NCBI GenBank assembly: GCA_029213165.1 | Contig: JARGNO010000029.1 | Location: forward strand, 1 to 40,517 | DNA from: Minwuia sp. | Lineage (GTDB): Bacteria > Pseudomonadota > Alphaproteobacteria > Minwuiales > Minwuiaceae | Direction: 5' to 3' | Length of the DNA: 40,517 nucleotides | In this document: positions 28,080 through 39,188 of the stretch, one piece after another | Position numbering within the stretch: position 1 is the first letter of the stretch | How the letters are laid out: every line of letters begins with the position of its first letter | Translations under genes and position numbers: made by a program | The notes under the pieces: generated by a model | The model's input: only the letters and a program-made list of their open reading frames with translations | Database searches by the model: none | Told to the model about the DNA's origin: nothing

Positions 28080-28100
28080 TGGCGGTGTCCGATTGAACCC

Positions 28101-28303
28101 AGCGGGAGAGATCAGTCCTTTGTCTGGAAACAGGCGCGGGATGGACGCCGAAGGAGCAACCGCCCCGGAAACTCTCAGGCAAACGGACCGCTGGGTGACG
28201 GCACTCTGGAAAGCGGAGCAGGCCTGCGGGTCCGCTCTCACCGAAGGGGTACGACCGGCAGCAAGCCGCTGGTCCAGTCTCTCAGGTCCCACGACAGAGG
28301 GGG
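28101..28303 (+). ncRNA. Tandem glycine riboswitch (gcvT motif)
   Basis: Two adjacent glycine aptamers lie in the gcvT leader. Aptamer 1 (about 28101-28191) shows GGGAGAGA, GCCGAAGGAGCAA and ACTCTCAGGCAAACGGAC. Aptamer 2 (about 28202-28303) shows CGAAGGGG, CTCTCAGGTCCC and the closing GACAGAGG. These are the conserved CGAAGG and CUCUCAGG-type cores of RF00504. A short linker (about 10 nt) separates them, as in cooperative tandem switches. In most bacteria glycine binding turns on the glycine-cleavage genes, which is what follows here. A hairpin at 28312-28333 is the probable expression platform. Confidence 0.95.
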
Positions 28304-33735: not shown

Positions 33736-34197
33736 ATGTCGGACGACATTCTCAGTCTCTTGGAGGCCTACTGGCAGAGCAAGTGCCGGGCTGATCGGCT
33801 TCCGACACGCCAGGATATCGATCCTGCCGAGATCAGGCGGCTGCTTGCCCATATCTCGTTGATTGATGTCGCGATGGACGGAGCGGGCTTTCGCTTTCGC
33901 CTCGTCGGGACCAAGGTCGTGCAGCAGCTTTCATATGACCCTACAGGTCAGGACGTGGCCGAAGGGCCGCAAACGGGCAAGGGATCACCATTCTGGAAAT
34001 TCCTGACAGCCGTCGCCACGGACCTGCAGCCAGGGTCGATCGAATTGCCCTATTTCGGCAACAACGTGTCGTTCGGCAGTATCCGGATAGTCGGATTTCC
34101 GCTTCTGGCCGATGGCGTGATCGACAAGGTACTGCTGGGCTTCAGCTTTGCCGGCGCCACGGAGATGCATGAACCGAAGCGGTGTATTAAACAGTAA
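33736..34197 (+). CDS. PAS_5-type PAS domain-containing protein
   Basis: This 153-residue protein is one PAS_5 (PF07310-like) domain, recognisable from LEAYWQSKCRADRLPTRQDIDPAEIRRLLAHISLIDV, then FRFRLVGTKVVQQLSYDPTGQDVAE and IRIVGFPLLADGVIDKVLLGFSF. Such stand-alone proteins are common in Rhodospirillales and similar groups; the ligand and partner are unknown. It carries no output domain. AAAGGGGAG lies 5 nt before the ATG. A CRP-type palindrome upstream suggests catabolite- or redox-type control. The gene is followed by a very AT-rich stretch that differs from the rest of the window. Confidence 0.85.
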   Translation: MSDDILSLLEAYWQSKCRADRLPTRQDIDPAEIRRLLAHISLIDVAMDGAGFRFRLVGTKVVQQLSYDPTGQDVAEGPQTGKGSPFWKFLTAVATDLQPGSIELPYFGNNVSFGSIRIVGFPLLADGVIDKVLLGFSFAGATEMHEPKRCIKQ

Positions 34198-34361
34198 TAA
34201 TATGTGATATAAAATATATACCATCGAAGAAGGATATTTATATTGACTTACGTGCCATGAGGATGAAATCATTCACATGGAAACAACGGCACGTAAATAC
34301 TCCGGTCATACAGCGACACCTGATGCGCCTGTACTGATCGCCACGGAATGGCCCACCGACC
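34198..34361 (+). promoter_or_regulatory. AT-rich upstream region of the cysG leader
   Basis: The first 50 bases after the PAS_5 stop are extremely AT-rich for this window (ATATGTGATATAAAATATA). TTGACT at 34243-34248 could be a -35 box; the bases 16-18 bp on (AAATCA/AATCAT) are a poor -10. The region probably holds the promoter of the cysG operon, but I cannot fix it. A 7-base arm CCACGGA (34341-34347) inside it recurs downstream of the aptamer. Confidence 0.4.
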
Positions 34362-34420
34362 TGACGGGCTCGCGGAATTTGATCGGGCAGCTTGCACCCG
34401 CGTTATCAAATGCTAAAGCG
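34362..34420 (+). ncRNA. SAM-II riboswitch (candidate, strong by motif)
   Basis: The order of conserved elements matches the SAM-II (metA, RF00521) aptamer. P1 is CGCGG (34371-34375) with CCGCG (34398-34402). The loop carries AATTTG and ends in CTTGCA (34391-34396). After P1 comes GTTATCAAATGCTAAAGCG with the invariant GCTAAA at 34412-34417. From memory the structurally known metX example has GATTTAACCG, TTGCA, CGTGATAAATG and GCTAAAAAGG in the same order and spacing. The aptamer folds as a pseudoknot that closes when SAM is bound. It sits about 126 nt before the cysG ATG in an operon ending in metZ, in keeping with SAM feedback on sulfur assimilation. SAM-V has a related core and is the alternative. 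Confidence 0.8.
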
Positions 34421-34463
34421 CCACGGAGCGAACTCCGTGGGCCCTTTCGAGGCACGGAGTTCG
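34421..34463 (+). promoter_or_regulatory. Alternative hairpins after the SAM-II aptamer (probable expression platform)
   Basis: Arm A CCACGGAG (34421-34428) pairs with CTCCGTGG (34433-34440) to give an 8-bp stem with a CGAA loop, followed by GCCCTTTCG. The same right arm, read as CGAACTCCGTG (34429-34439), is also perfectly complementary over 11 bp to arm C, CACGGAGTTCG (34453-34463). The two stems cannot coexist. The T-run is short (TTT), so termination may be Rho-assisted or the switch may act otherwise. The remainder of the leader to 34545 holds the ribosome-binding site GGGAGGGG. Confidence 0.65.
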
Positions 34464-34545
34464 GGACAATGATCCCAGCAAGTTCAGACAAGTTTGATGC
34501 CACGCAGAGTCGCTGGCTCCATCCTGCTTTGGGAGGGGCCTGACC

Positions 34546-35946
34546 ATGCAGGCATTTCCGATCTTCCTGAAACTCAAGGGCCGCACTGCGCTGCTGGTTG
34601 GCGGTGGTGACGCCGCCGCCGCGAAGCTGCGGCTGCTCATTGCCGCCGGATCGGATGTCCGCGTCGTGGCACGCGATGCTGACGACTGCGTCCGGGAACT
34701 GGTGGATGGCAGTCAGGTCTCCCTGATCGAGGACAGTTTCGATACGTCCCACCTCGTCGGCATCGTGGTGGCAATCATCGCCACGGAAGATGAGGCAGAG
34801 GATACGCGTGTGGCGGCCGCGGCGCGTGCGGCGGGCGTGACGGTCAATGTCGTTGACCGTCCGGCACTGTCGGATTTCACGATGCCCGCCATCGTCGACC
34901 GTGATCCCGTGACTGTCGCAATCTCCACTGGTGGTGCTGCGCCGGTGCTGGCGCGGCAGGTGCGCGGCGCGGTGGAAGCCGCATTGCCGGCGCAGCTTGG
35001 CGCGCTGGCCGGTTTCATGAACAGTTTCCGCAGCGCTGTGGCTGCCATCCGACAGACGCCGAAGGCGCGCCGGAAGTTCTGGGAGGGGTTTCTCTCCGGT
35101 CCGGTCGCCCGTGAAGTGCTGGACGGCAACGAGGGATCGGCGCGTCAGCACATGCTCGCCCTGGTCAATCAGGGTGAAGTGAATGATCCGGTTGGCCGGG
35201 TTGCCCTTGTCGGGGCGGGGCCGGGTGACCCGGAACTGCTGACACTGAAGGCGCATCGCCTGCTGAAGCAGGCAGACGTGATCGTGCATGACAAGCTGGT
35301 GGGCGAGGGGGTGCTGGAACTCGCGCGTCGTGATGCCCGGCTGGTCTATGTCGGCAAGTCGCGCGGGCATCACCATCGCACGCAGGACCAGATCAACGAC
35401 ATTCTGGTTGCGGAGGCGGAGGCCGGAAATCTGGTCGTTCGCCTGAAGGGTGGGGATCCCTTCGTCTTCGGTCGTGGCGGAGAGGAAGTCGAACACCTGC
35501 ATGCCCACGGGATAGAGGTCGAGGTGGTGCCTGGCATCACCGCGGCGGCGGGCTGCGCCGCATCTGCAGGCTTCCCGCTGACCCATCGCGGCAAGGCCAG
35601 CGCGGTGACCTTCCTTTCCGGGCAGGGCAAGGACGGCAAGCCGGATCTTGACTGGCGGGCGCTGGGGCAGGCGAACCACACGCTGGCCATCTACATGGGC
35701 ATCGACACCGCGCGCACCTCCGCCCGGGAACTCATCGCCCATGGCCGCGACCCGGGAACACCCGTTGCGGTCATCGAGAATGGCACGCTGCCGAGCCAGC
35801 GTGTCCTGCGGGGGCGACTGGATCAATTGCCCGAGCTGGTGAAACGGGAAGCGGTCGTGACCCCGGCCCTGCTGATCATCGGCGAGGTGACCGGCAAGAC
35901 AATTGACGCTGCGGCGGTTCAGGACCGCCTGGCGCTGGCACTCTGA
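34546..35946 (+). CDS. cysG: Siroheme synthase CysG (bifunctional)
   Basis: CysG makes siroheme, the cofactor of sulfite reductase, from uroporphyrinogen III. The 466-residue protein fuses a precorrin-2 dehydrogenase/ferrochelatase half (ALLVGGGDAAAAKLRLL near residue 15, then VDRPALSDFTMPAIVDRDPVTVAISTGG) to a SUMT methyltransferase half from about residue 223 (VALVGAGPGDPELLTLKAHRLL, GDPFVFGRGGEE, VPGITAAAGCAASAGFPLTHR, AIYMGI). Start preceded by GGGAGGGG. It is the first gene of the cys-met operon and lies under the SAM-II leader. Supplying siroheme from the same transcript as cysI is sensible. Confidence 0.97.
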   Translation: MQAFPIFLKLKGRTALLVGGGDAAAAKLRLLIAAGSDVRVVARDADDCVRELVDGSQVSLIEDSFDTSHLVGIVVAIIATEDEAEDTRVAAAARAAGVTVNVVDRPALSDFTMPAIVDRDPVTVAISTGGAAPVLARQVRGAVEAALPAQLGALAGFMNSFRSAVAAIRQTPKARRKFWEGFLSGPVAREVLDGNEGSARQHMLALVNQGEVNDPVGRVALVGAGPGDPELLTLKAHRLLKQADVIVHDKLVGEGVLELARRDARLVYVGKSRGHHHRTQDQINDILVAEAEAGNLVVRLKGGDPFVFGRGGEEVEHLHAHGIEVEVVPGITAAAGCAASAGFPLTHRGKASAVTFLSGQGKDGKPDLDWRALGQANHTLAIYMGIDTARTSARELIAHGRDPGTPVAVIENGTLPSQRVLRGRLDQLPELVKREAVVTPALLIIGEVTGKTIDAAAVQDRLALAL

Positions 35947-35965: not shown

Positions 35966-36253
35966 ATGGCACTCGAAATCATCACGGCAAACCGTCTCGG
36001 GGACGGTCTGGTGATCTTTCTGACGACAGACGGCTGGTCGGCACGGATCGACGCAGCCGCCGTATCGGAGACCAAGGATGAAACCGCGGCGCTGCTGGCG
36101 CGCGCGGAGGCCGACGCCGGCCTTGTTGTCGGTCCGTACGAGATCACGGTGGAACGGCAGGCGGATGGCAGCCTCCACCCGGTGAAGTACCGCGAGGCCC
36201 TGCGGACGCGCGGGCCGTCCGTTCGCACCGACCTTGGCTATCAGGCTGCCTGA
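35966..36253 (+). CDS. DUF2849 domain-containing protein
   Basis: This 95-residue protein (ITANRLGDGLVIFLTTDGWS ... GPYEITVERQADGSLHPVKYREALRTRGPSVR) matches DUF2849, a small alphaproteobacterial family almost always located between cysG and the sulfite/nitrite reductase gene. A role in sulfite reduction (for example electron transfer or reductase assembly) is inferred from context only. It has no cysteine, so it is not an iron-sulfur carrier. GGAG lies about 10 bases before the ATG at 35966; the frame also extends upstream into cysG without support. Confidence 0.88.
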   Translation: MALEIITANRLGDGLVIFLTTDGWSARIDAAAVSETKDETAALLARAEADAGLVVGPYEITVERQADGSLHPVKYREALRTRGPSVRTDLGYQAA

Positions 36254-36277: not shown

Positions 36278-37933
36278 ATGTATGTCTATGACGAGCTTGA
36301 TCGTGGCCTGGTGAATGAACGGGTCGAGGAATTCCGGGACCAGGTCAACCGCCGCATTTCCGGCGAACTGACGGAGGAGCAGTTCAGGCCCCTTCGCCTG
36401 ATGAACGGCCTGTATCTGCAGTTGCACGCCTACATGCTGCGTGTTGCGGTGCCCTATGGTGTGCTCTCCAGCACCCAGATGCGGAAACTGGCGCGGATCG
36501 CACGTGTCTATGATCGCGGTTACGGCCATTTCACGACCCGCCAGAACATCCAGTTCAACTGGCCGAAGCTGGAAGAGACGCCGGATATCCTGGCGGAACT
36601 GGCCGAGGTCGAGATGCATGCCATCCAGACCTCCGGCAATTGCATCCGCAATACCACTGCGGACCAGTTTGCCGGGGCGGCTGCCGATGAACTGGAAGAC
36701 CCGCGTATCTGGTGCGAGATCATCCGCCAGTGGTCGACGTTCCACCCGGAGTTCACCTTCCTGCCGCGCAAGTTCAAGATCGCGGTGACCGGTGCCGTCA
36801 GCGACCGCGCCGCGATCAAGGTGCATGACATCGGCATAGTGCTGGTGCAGGGCACGGACGGGGAAGTCGGTTTCGAGATATGGGCCGGGGGCGGTCTGGG
36901 CCGCACGCCGATGATCGCGAAGAAGATTCGCGACTTCCTGCCGGCAACCGATCTGCTGAGCTATCTGGAGGCGATGCTGCGCGTCTACAACCGCTTCGGT
37001 CGGCGCGACAACAAGTACAAGGCGCGCATCAAGATCCTGGTGCACGAGATCGGGGCCGACGCCTATCGCGATGCGGTCGAGGCGGAGTGGGCGGATATCC
37101 GTGACGGTGCGCTGGCGCTGCCGGAGCAGGAGATCAGCCGTATCCGCGAGGCCTTCACACCACCTGCGTTCGAGGCGCTGGAGACGGCCTCCACAGCGTT
37201 CGAGGCGCGCAAGTTCGAGGATCGCGGCTTTGCCCGCTGGGTGGCCAGCAATGTCCGTCGCCACAAGGTGCCGGGCTATGCCATCGCCAACATCTCGCTG
37301 AAGCCTGCCGGGGGCATTCCCGGTGACGCGACGGCGGAACAGATGGACGCGGTCGCCGACTATGCAGACCGCTGGTCGTTTGGTGAGTTGCGGGTGGCGC
37401 ATGAGCAGAACCTGGTCCTGCCGCATGTCCGCCAGGAAGACCTATACGATCTCTGGCTGGCGCTTGGCTCGGTGGAACTGGATGCGCCGAACATCGGTAC
37501 GCTGGGCGACATCATCGCTTGCCCGGGCATGGACTACTGCAGTCTGGCCACGGCCCGTTCGATCCCGGTGGCGCAGCAGATCTCGGAGCGCTTTGCCGAT
37601 CTGGAGCGGCTGCACGACATCGGCTCGGTCAGCCTGAACATCTCCGGCTGCATCAATGCCTGCGGTCATCACCACGTGGGCAACATCGGCATCCTTGGCG
37701 TCGACAAGAAGGGTGAGGAATTCTACCAGGTCACCCTCGGCGGACAGGCCGACGAGAATGCTGCAATCGGCAAGATCATCGGTCCGGGCTTCGCCTCCGA
37801 CGCGATTGTCGATGCCATCGAAACCATCATCGAAACCTATCTGTCGGTGCGTCAGGACGGTGAGACCTTCATCGGCACCCTGAATCGCCTCGGCCAGACC
37901 CCATTCAAGGAGGCTCTCTATGGCACTGCTTAA
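36278..37933 (+). CDS. cysI: Ferredoxin-type sulfite (nitrite/sulfite) reductase
   Basis: This 551-residue siroheme-[4Fe-4S] reductase catalyses the six-electron reduction of sulfite to sulfide. The four cluster/siroheme cysteines are in CPGMDYC (Cys415, Cys421) and GCINACGHHHVG (Cys458, Cys462). Siroheme-anion-binding Arg/Lys segments include YGHFTTRQNIQFNW and TSGNCIRNTTADQ. The operon lacks the flavoprotein CysJ, so electrons probably come from ferredoxin or another donor. A nitrite reductase of the same family is possible from sequence alone, but the cysG-cysH-metZ setting favours sulfite. The DUF934 gene starts 14 bp before its stop, with its AAGGAGG inside cysI. Confidence 0.93.
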   Translation: MYVYDELDRGLVNERVEEFRDQVNRRISGELTEEQFRPLRLMNGLYLQLHAYMLRVAVPYGVLSSTQMRKLARIARVYDRGYGHFTTRQNIQFNWPKLEETPDILAELAEVEMHAIQTSGNCIRNTTADQFAGAAADELEDPRIWCEIIRQWSTFHPEFTFLPRKFKIAVTGAVSDRAAIKVHDIGIVLVQGTDGEVGFEIWAGGGLGRTPMIAKKIRDFLPATDLLSYLEAMLRVYNRFGRRDNKYKARIKILVHEIGADAYRDAVEAEWADIRDGALALPEQEISRIREAFTPPAFEALETASTAFEARKFEDRGFARWVASNVRRHKVPGYAIANISLKPAGGIPGDATAEQMDAVADYADRWSFGELRVAHEQNLVLPHVRQEDLYDLWLALGSVELDAPNIGTLGDIIACPGMDYCSLATARSIPVAQQISERFADLERLHDIGSVSLNISGCINACGHHHVGNIGILGVDKKGEEFYQVTLGGQADENAAIGKIIGPGFASDAIVDAIETIIETYLSVRQDGETFIGTLNRLGQTPFKEALYGTA

Positions 37934-38429
37934 GAACGGGCGACTGATCCAGGACCGCTGGACCACCGTCGAGAACCTGACCGATGCGCTGAAGCCCGGT
38001 GGCGTGCTGGTTCCGCTGGAACTCTGGCTGGCGGAGCGCGACACCCTGCGGGGCAAGAGTGCGGTGGGTGTCATCCTGCCGAACGATGCCGATCTGGACC
38101 TGCTGGCGGAAGACTACGACCGCATCGCGGCCATCGTCCTGACCTTCCCGTCGATGGTGGATGGCCGGGCCTTCTCCCAGGCTCGCCTGATTCGCGAACG
38201 CTTCGGCTTCGATGGGGAGATCCGCGCCCGCGGTCCGGTGATCGCCGACCAGTACCTGTATCTGCTGCGCTGCGGCGTCGATGCCGTTGAAGTGCCTGAA
38301 GATACCAATGTCGAAAGCTGGCTGCGGAATGCGCGACGGTTCTCCGCTGTCTATCAGCCCGCTGCTGACGACCGTATCCCGGCCTATCGCCGCCGCCACC
38401 TGGTGGCGGCCTCGGCCATCGCTTCCTGA
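37920..38429 (+). CDS. DUF934 domain-containing protein
   Basis: This 169-residue member of DUF934 is annotated in many genomes as an oxidoreductase probably involved in sulfite reduction. Conserved parts are GRLIQDRW, LVPLELWLAER, VGVILPNDADLDLLAEDYDRIAAIVLTFPSMVDGRAFSQARLIRERFGF and GEIRARGPVIADQYLYLLRCGVDAVEV. It lacks a recognisable cofactor site. AAGGAGG lies 6 nt before the ATG, 14 bp inside the cysI 3' end, so translation is coupled. Its fixed position between cysI and cysH in Proteobacteria links it to the pathway, but the biochemical role is unknown. Confidence 0.9.
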   Translation: MALLKNGRLIQDRWTTVENLTDALKPGGVLVPLELWLAERDTLRGKSAVGVILPNDADLDLLAEDYDRIAAIVLTFPSMVDGRAFSQARLIRERFGFDGEIRARGPVIADQYLYLLRCGVDAVEVPEDTNVESWLRNARRFSAVYQPAADDRIPAYRRRHLVAASAIAS

Positions 38430-38441
38430 GGAACTGCTGAC

Positions 38442-39188
38442 ATGTCGCTTCAGTCCCGCCAGCCCTTTCCCGATATCGAGCGTCTGATCCGGTCCTCGAA
38501 CCGCGCGTTCGAACTGAACGAGACCTGCGGTGAGATGCAGGGGATGGATCTGATCGCGGCGGCGCGTGACGCTTTCGGTGACAGGCTGACGCTGGTGTCA
38601 TCCTTCGGCACCGAAGCGGCGGTGCTGCTGCACATGGTGGCAGAGGTCGATCCGTCGATCACGGTGACCTTCGTCGATACGCGCCGTCTGTTCGGTGAGA
38701 CCCTGCGCTATCGCGACCAACTCGCCGCGCGCTTGGGACTGATGGACGTGCGCACCGTCGCGCCCGACCCGCGTCGCGTGAAGCAGCTCGATGCGGATCA
38801 GATGCTGTTCAACCGGGACACCAACCTGTGCTGTCACATCAGGAAGGTGGAACCGCTGGAGCGGGCCCTGAACGGCTTCGACGCCTGGATCACGGGCCGC
38901 AAGTCCTATCAGGCGGAGACCCGGCGGTACCTGCCTGCCGTGGAGGCTGTCGGAGGACGGGTGAAGTTCAATCCATTGGCGCGTTTCACACCTGATCGGA
39001 TCGACGGCTGGTTCAGGGACCACAATTTGCCGCGTCACCCGCTGGAGGCGGATGGTTTTCTTTCCGTTGGCTGTATGCCATGCACGGACAGGGTCAAGCC
39101 GGGCGAGGATCCGCGATCCGGGCGCTGGCGGGGTCAGGACAAGACAGAATGCGGCATCCATGAAGGTGTCGCAGGCGACGGTATCTGA
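38442..39188 (+). CDS. cysH: Assimilatory adenylyl-sulfate (APS) reductase
   Basis: This 248-residue protein reduces activated sulfate to sulfite. The paired cysteines Cys130-Cys131 (NLCCHIRKVEPL) and Cys211/Cys214 (VGCMPCTDRV) form the CC...CxxC [4Fe-4S] motif that distinguishes APS reductases from the cluster-free PAPS reductases of E. coli. The nucleophile is Cys237 in KTECGIHEG, and SSFGTEAAVLLHM is the nucleotide loop. APS use means APS kinase (cysC) is not needed; the ATP sulfurylase genes (cysDN) are not in this window. It begins 12 bp after the DUF934 gene and precedes a rhodanese gene by 14 bp. Confidence 0.96.
   Translation: MSLQSRQPFPDIERLIRSSNRAFELNETCGEMQGMDLIAAARDAFGDRLTLVSSFGTEAAVLLHMVAEVDPSITVTFVDTRRLFGETLRYRDQLAARLGLMDVRTVAPDPRRVKQLDADQMLFNRDTNLCCHIRKVEPLERALNGFDAWITGRKSYQAETRRYLPAVEAVGGRVKFNPLARFTPDRIDGWFRDHNLPRHPLEADGFLSVGCMPCTDRVKPGEDPRSGRWRGQDKTECGIHEGVAGDGI

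Follow-up and report, generated by a model that had tools for sequence, protein, structure and literature searches.

On balance, the two hairpins at positions 34421-34463 of the Minwuia sp. window (the whole 40,517-nt stretch of DNA that was analysed) probably form the expression platform of a SAM-II-type riboswitch, one that carries an inserted hairpin, P3, after the 3' strand of P2 and would repress translation at high SAM. The hairpins sit in the leader of a sulfate-assimilation operon (cysG/sulfite reductase/PAPS reductase), directly behind a SAM-II-like aptamer. The pair looks like an expression platform since its third arm contains a Shine-Dalgarno sequence and since relatives conserve, in locus-specific form, the arm with two partners.

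The inserted hairpin P3 lies on the forward strand and consists of arm 1 (CCACGGAG, 34421-34428), a CGAA loop (34429-34432), and arm 2 (CTCCGTGG, 34433-34440), joined by eight perfect pairs. The alternative hairpin (34429-34463, forward strand) pairs CGAACTCCGTG (34429-34439) with arm 3 (CACGGAGTTCG, 34453-34463) in eleven perfect pairs across a 13-nt loop. The Shine-Dalgarno GGAG (34456-34459, forward strand) is located within arm 3, 9 nt ahead of the ATG (34469-34471) of a short ORF; one of two exclusive helices thus holds the Shine-Dalgarno, as in a translational sequestration switch. The letters and coordinates of the arms agree exactly with an earlier note on this DNA, which had read one arm with two perfect partners as the signature of a switch. 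When 34403-34545 was shuffled with its dinucleotides preserved, an 8-bp hairpin together with an 11-bp alternative on a common arm was found in 0 of 5000, and any 8-bp hairpin with a loop of 3-8 nt in 60 of 5000. Twenty such 8-bp hairpins exist in the whole window on both strands, and the 11-bp alternative exists only at 34421-34463. No terminator-like site was found in 34190-34545 and no T run follows 34463; a terminator reading of the element was rejected, since there is no T-rich terminator there.

By its sequence, the architecture upstream of the hairpins is that of a SAM-II-like element. RF00521 (SAM-II) matches 34362-34436 with 30.6 bits (E 3.4e-5), below the Rfam gathering score of 36 bits, and RF01726 matches with 23.5 bits against a gathering score of 44. 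The element is therefore called SAM-II-like rather than an Rfam member; a search of the whole window at gathering scores reported only a tandem glycine riboswitch at 28093-28301. Those two glycine aptamers (66.9 + 36.7 bits) lie upstream of putative glycine-cleavage-type genes, as judged from reading the ORFs. P1 (34371-34402, forward strand), placed by the RF00521 alignment and 42 aligned loci, pairs CGCGG (34371-34375) with CCGCG (34398-34402), and its loop carries L1 UUUGA (34378-34382) and the 5' strand of P2. This 5' strand of the pseudoknot (34387-34395, GC-A-GCUUGC, forward strand) was assigned from the sequence and from homology with canonical SAM-II. The 3' strand (34412-34421, forward strand) consists of the pocket GCUAAAG followed by C, G, and C, and its last base, 34421, is common to arm 1; within it, the pseudoknot strand GCUAAA finds the matching CUUGC (34390-34395 / 34412-34417). 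Canonical SAM-II keeps the G and A of L1 UUUGA for the ligand-bound groove. Its contiguous P2 is taken here to be bases 15-16 with 50-51 in crystal-structure numbering, presumably equivalent to 34387-34388 with 34420-34421 in the window, where this lower part of P2 is possible as GC/GC. The aptamer loop GGGC (34385-34388, forward strand) can pair with the strand GCCC (34441-34444, forward strand) directly behind P3, called the clamp strand for its locus-specific complementarity to the loop; the last two loop bases are also those that can pair with 34420-34421 in the contiguous P2. The P1 core, UUUGA, CUUGC, and GCUAAAG are invariant in the 42 aligned loci, part of them being fixed by the search pattern, and SAM is the presumed ligand. 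A second SAM-II, canonical and above the Rfam cut-off with 49.7 bits, occurs elsewhere in the same genome (G000:C120:12416-12492, L244), so that ordinary and P3-type elements coexist.

The earlier note had also supposed that AAAG of GCTAAAG could extend the 8-bp stem against CTTT and so tie ligand binding to hairpin choice. The letters of the window allow this extension, but the relatives do not bear it out: among seven same-genus leaders inspected by eye, CTTT is present at that site in L001 (the leader of the window), L002, and L003 and absent from L004, L005, L007, and L008. With four of seven leaders lacking CTTT, the extension was rejected as a general link between ligand and hairpin. The links predicted from the conserved letters are different ones, namely base 34421 (here also 34422), which is common to P2 and the hairpin, and the loop 34385-34388 with 34441-34444.

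The short ORF (34469-34543, forward strand, 24 codons, MIPASSDKFDATQSRWLHPALGGA) ends with its stop codon at 34541-34543, 2 nt before the start of cysG (34546-35946). The latter encodes a sirohaem synthase with the domains TP_methylase, NAD_binding_7, CysG_dimeriser, and Sirohm_synth_M, and is followed in the operon, all on the forward strand, by DUF2849 (35966-36253), a nitrite/sulfite reductase (36278-37933), DUF934 (37920-38429), and PAPS reductase (38442-39188). An ORF of 24-43 codons stands at the same place in 7/7 same-genus leaders (L001-L005, L007, L008), ending 2 nt (five leaders) or 10 nt (two leaders) before cysG. As the peptide is not conserved, the role of the short ORF is probably coupling. 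A conserved peptide, encoded either by the short ORF or by the in-frame stretch from ATG 34277, was considered and rejected: no coding constraint was seen, since a hand count of the substitutions between L001 and L002 found them distributed over the codon positions without an excess at the third. This ATG, upstream of the aptamer, shares its reading frame with the short ORF, and that frame is open through the aptamer (34277-34543); a similar 101-codon ORF runs through the aptamer in L004.

A BLAST search with the leader found a match in 11 of 41 genomes, its own included. Furthermore, a pattern scan of the genome collection (GCAGCTTGC, 8-30 nt, GCTAAAGCGCC) returned at least 119 stretches, mostly from Alphaproteobacteria. 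Here, at least 134 pattern matches were reduced to 126 by a P1/L1 motif filter, to 119 that were non-redundant with enough flank, and to 103 with a P3 stem; 102 of those loci entered the permutation test described below, and the loop test comprised 89 unique pairs. A covariance model that comprises P1 and P3 and was trained on 42 selected loci (pattern or BLAST finds) matched 118 of 385 genomes of the class at E <=0.001, the weaker matches including ordinary SAM-II, and at least 83 matches of at least 50 bits were located in at least 67 of the 385. The predicted two-hairpin SAM-II design is widespread, standing before sulfur-assimilation genes in many Alphaproteobacteria. Among 20 P3-type leaders scanned, the P3-type element itself passed the Rfam gathering score in two (L177, L179), and a third match (L168) corresponds to an upstream terminator-type aptamer. 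In relatives, cysG, PAPS reductase, or a Cys/Met-metabolism PLP enzyme is situated directly behind the switch; in loci other than those with the Cys-ended leader peptides described below, the first ORF behind it can be the enzyme or transporter itself. In 18 loci (L011, L045, L077, L095, L109, L119, L143, L161, L168, L180, L200, L219, L224, L225, L227, L228, L235, L238), another SAM-II is located 117-233 nt upstream, with a run of at least four T between the two elements in 17/18 and, in most, a GC-rich stem before the T run; by the criterion applied, the downstream one of the two elements carries P3 in 10/18.

Covariation of the arms in orthologous leaders, on which the earlier note had let its proposal depend, was observed for P3, and the pairing of arm 2 with the start region proved to be locus-specific. 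In P3, 96% of cells are paired and 4/8 pairs have changed on both sides; in P1, 100% of cells are paired, with a compensatory change in 2/5 pairs. When P1, P3, and three pairs between the loop and the strand behind P3 are taken together, 7/16 pairs change on both sides versus 3.5 in shuffles, 94.1% of cells are paired versus 88.4%, and the covariation score is 0.216 versus 0.109. In the loci compared, the part of the aptamer loop that immediately precedes AGCUUGC complements the strand adjoining the 3' end of P3, with examples such as GGGC/GCCC, GGAGC/GCUCC, GGGAGC/GUUCCC (L048), CCCGGC/GUCGGG (L159), and GAGGGGC/GCCCCUC (L011). The mean duplex energy of this pairing is -5.32 within loci against -4.07 for swapped strands (z -6.6 for 89 unique pairs among the matches listed, 0/500 permutations), although this and all following z values overstate independence, since related sequences share ancestry and the permutations leave that ancestry in. 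The same pairing gave z -7.5 for 50 unique pairs (0/1000 permutations) in new loci, found by the covariance model or BLAST and absent from the first set. Within the window's own group, defined by the post-P3 strand GCC, no clamp signal was obtained (z +1.7), since the strand hardly varies there.

The loop and 3' arm of P3 are likewise matched to the downstream start region (z -9.7 for 102 loci among the matches listed, 0/500 permutations). By group, and again among the matches listed, the values are z -7.5 for the group of the window (39 loci) and z -4.9 for the others (63), with 0/500 permutations each, and 53 new loci gave z -5.1 with no permutation as extreme. The one arm with two partners, which had been noticed in a single sequence, is thus conserved and locus-specific in relatives; examples are ACGTGCTCC / GGAGACACGT in L112, AATGCTCCG / CGGAGCATT in L117, and CGATCTCC / GGAGATCG in L119. 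Sequence comparison therefore points to three conserved locus-specific pairings, those of the inserted hairpin P3 itself, of the aptamer loop with the strand after P3, and of the P3 3' arm with the start region. With G-U counted, bases 16 and 50 are pairable in 169/171 elements with a P3-like stem and bases 15 and 51 in 160/171, most of these elements having been found by a pattern that fixes these bases and a few being upstream terminator-type ones. In at least five P3-type loci (L205, L208, L213, L223, L233), base 15 is unable to pair with 51. By eye, the pairing behind P3 is possible in L205, L208, L213, and L223, and L233 needs a bulge. This combination speaks for the clamp over a contiguous P2.

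Folding with and without a constrained aptamer, a comparison proposed in the earlier note, gave an answer that depends on the length of the stretch: short stretches show the anticipated shift between P3 and arm 2 pairing, whereas the longer 34403-34543 keeps P3 at 1.00 with or without the contiguous P2, its Shine-Dalgarno and arm 3 pairing farther downstream. The short stretches, taken from 138 loci, began at GCUAAAG and ended a few bases beyond the start codon. There, P3 stood at 0.48 in the free fold, at 0.23 with the contiguous P2 imposed, and at 0.71 with the clamp and upper P2 imposed; the pairing of arm 2 with the start region amounted to 4.8, 7.2, and 3.0 bp, and Shine-Dalgarno access to 0.37, 0.32, and 0.48, respectively. 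Access was higher by >0.1 under the clamp than under the contiguous P2 in 64/138 loci and lower by >0.1 in 11/138. In the leader of the window, it was 0.16 free, 0.004 with the contiguous P2, and 0.10 when clamped. A single minimum free energy fold was set aside as evidence, since the 276-nt fold chooses arm 2 with arm 3 and the 141-nt fold chooses P3. As the longer fold keeps P3 and the 276-nt fold takes the alternative, the two hairpins appear to be near balance and the model is indecisive; the energy model allows a switch without proving it. The fold of 34403-34543 also contains a long-range pairing of the strand behind P3. By eye, this strand (34440-34448, GGCCCTTTC) could also pair with the cysG Shine-Dalgarno region (34533-34542, GGGAGGGGCC).

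The assignment of these pairings to the two states, the off direction, and the coupling are proposed as follows. Without SAM, P3 (34421-34440) would form, held by the clamp between the aptamer loop (34385-34388) and 34441-34444. The 24-codon ORF would then have an open start region and, given that this ORF ends 2 nt before the cysG start, cysG would be translated by coupling. With SAM, P2 would close contiguously as in canonical SAM-II (34387-34388 with 34420-34421), taking the first base of P3 together with the loop bases of the clamp and thereby weakening P3. Released arm 2 (34429-34439) would pair with arm 3 (34453-34463) and hide the Shine-Dalgarno, shutting down the short ORF and, by coupling, the cysG operon. 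The bound P2 and the clamped P3 would be partly exclusive, since 34421 is common to P2 and arm 1 and the loop bases also form the clamp. The off direction was chosen in view of the sulfur-assimilation genes and of the tandem copies behind terminator-type SAM-II elements, which count because sensors of a common ligand should act in the same direction within a leader. PMC1273637 and PMC9373788, in their available text, interpret terminator-type SAM-II as an off switch, and in S. meliloti SAM-II lowers expression according to the corresponding part of PMC9373788.

The covariation is compatible with either assignment of states, since P3, the clamp, and upper P2 make a good three-way junction that could bind SAM. 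The same parts may accordingly be arranged as a SAM-on switch, an unlikely direction, in which SAM would stabilize the junction of upper P2, P3, and the helix between the loop and the strand behind P3, so that arm 2 stays away from the start region and translation proceeds. In the absence of SAM, the start region would be covered by arm 2 together with the strand behind P3. In such a junction, P3 and the loop helix coexist naturally with an intact SAM pocket, and the pairing of arm 2 with the start region excludes P3; imposing it gives the highest Shine-Dalgarno access (0.48 versus 0.37 free), and the at least five loci with a broken 15-51 pair keep the pairing behind P3. However, the helix runs into the L1 G and A of UUUGA in some loci, the tandem copies stand behind terminator-type SAM-II elements, and activation by SAM of sulfur-assimilation genes (cysG, PAPS reductase, Cys/Met-metabolism PLP enzyme) would be self-amplifying.

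Another explanation, improbable in light of the compared loci, needs no exchange of partners: the closed P2 and P3 beside the start region would block the ribosome by crowding, and the complementarity of arm 2 to arm 3 would be a by-product of Shine-Dalgarno-like P3 arms. GGAG does occur in the P3 5' arm of the window and several relatives, so that a likeness of arm 2 to an anti-Shine-Dalgarno is inevitable, and in many loci the element is closely followed by the start site. However, the complementarity extends into the P3 loop, outside the Shine-Dalgarno (CGAA/TTCG in the window; also L112, L117, L119), and is locus-specific beyond swapped start regions. A role of the hairpins in mRNA stability or processing, or a lack of function behind an aptamer that has lost SAM binding, is very improbable: the element does score below the Rfam gathering score with SAM binding as a prediction, and SAM-II pseudoknots have been proposed to stabilize mRNA in S. 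meliloti (available text of PMC9373788), but the aligned loci, whose letters the search pattern fixes in part, show no change at the pocket bases, and related genes are repeatedly preceded by the same design, which matches at 50 bits or more in at least 67/385 genomes of the class.

In addition to the SAM-off switch favoured here, many relatives possess a Cys-ended leader peptide behind the switch, which suggests combined SAM and cysteine sensing. In 83 unique ORFs of 8-60 codons, Cys accounts for 170 of 1991 codons, compared with 84 and 44 of 1908 in the two remaining reading frames of this DNA and with 97 of 7673 in a set of 27 longer ORFs. A Cys-Cys pair exists in 33/83 short ORFs, and Cys is most frequent 3-5 codons ahead of the stop, as in MTGSVLRPVEPLVRSMMCCCRR and MTATRKTRLCCCR; short ORFs with Cys runs are situated just behind the P3-type element in L111, L122, L127, L129, L099, L138, L133, and others. 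In a crude scan of the 260 nt that follow the short ORF, 8/83 loci showed a terminator-like stem, so that transcription attenuation after it is not general by this measure. In L122, L127, L129, and L135, a conserved small ORF (AYVIEVGETQAGLV...RFATPGAAELAAR) follows the Cys leader by ~75-90 nt, with a GC-rich stem ahead of it. The short ORF of the window contains zero Cys codons, and thus lacks the mark of a Cys-codon leader peptide attenuator. It is tentatively suggested that this SAM-II subtype often gates a Cys-ended leader peptide, in which case the leader would sense SAM through the RNA and charged Cys-tRNA through the ribosome, and the Minwuia leader would be a simplified, coupling-only form. 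In the available text of PMC8632094 (Brewer 2021), the cysS leader of Rhodobacterales contains a motif with two Cys codons, and this uORFC-8-2, a short ORF with tandem Cys codons, is read as ribosome-mediated attenuation. As described in that text, no riboswitch stands in front of it; it further differs from the window, whose short ORF is without a Cys codon.

Compared with the known systems, the element resembles SAM-II of metA (RF00521, SAM_alpha) in P1, L1 UUUGA, P2 CUUGC, and the GCUAAA pocket, and in its alphaproteobacterial position before sulfur amino acid genes. Beyond what the available text of PMC1273637 gives for RF00521, it has a covarying hairpin behind the P2 3' strand, a helix between the loop and the strand after that hairpin, and a downstream sequestering arm; by the same partial account, it also differs in its sulfate-assimilation genes and short coupled ORF, with 30.6 bits against a cut-off of 36. 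The S. meliloti metA/metZ SAM-II likewise precedes sulfur genes, and metA translation is controlled via a Shine-Dalgarno near P2 (Scheuer 2022, PMC9373788, in the available text). There, P2 itself hinders ribosome binding or a terminator forms, and this account, as far as available, is without an inserted hairpin or a choice between two hairpins. Terminators or a Shine-Dalgarno near P2 are the platforms in the available parts of both Corbino 2005 (PMC1273637) and Scheuer 2022 (PMC9373788). SAM-II long loops (RF01726), also a variant of SAM-II and a weak match here (23.5 bits, below the cut-off of 44), is listed for Bacteroidetes and marine sequences in the available text of Weinberg 2010 (PMC2864571). 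The available part of Leyn 2014 (PMC4239095) restricts SAM_alpha to Rhizobiales and Rhodobacterales, where it precedes methionine genes. A known leader with SAM sensors at the transcription and translation levels shares the presence of two SAM sensors per leader; in the loci related to the window, a P3-type SAM-II forms the second unit, and the window itself contains only one SAM-II-like aptamer. No description of a hairpin inserted behind SAM-II P2, or of a SAM-II-gated Cys leader, was found in the available text of the open-access literature, outside which most subscription papers fall.

SAM-II is the textbook small pseudoknot switch, and its expression platforms are little studied. The subtype described here, with a third helix, a loop clamp, and an arm that sequesters the start site, falls largely below the Rfam cut-off (2/20 leaders pass). 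Through it, many Alphaproteobacteria would have sulfate assimilation, and not methionine genes alone, under SAM control. Should the Cys-codon leaders prove functional, riboswitch and leader peptide would together constitute a natural two-input gate.
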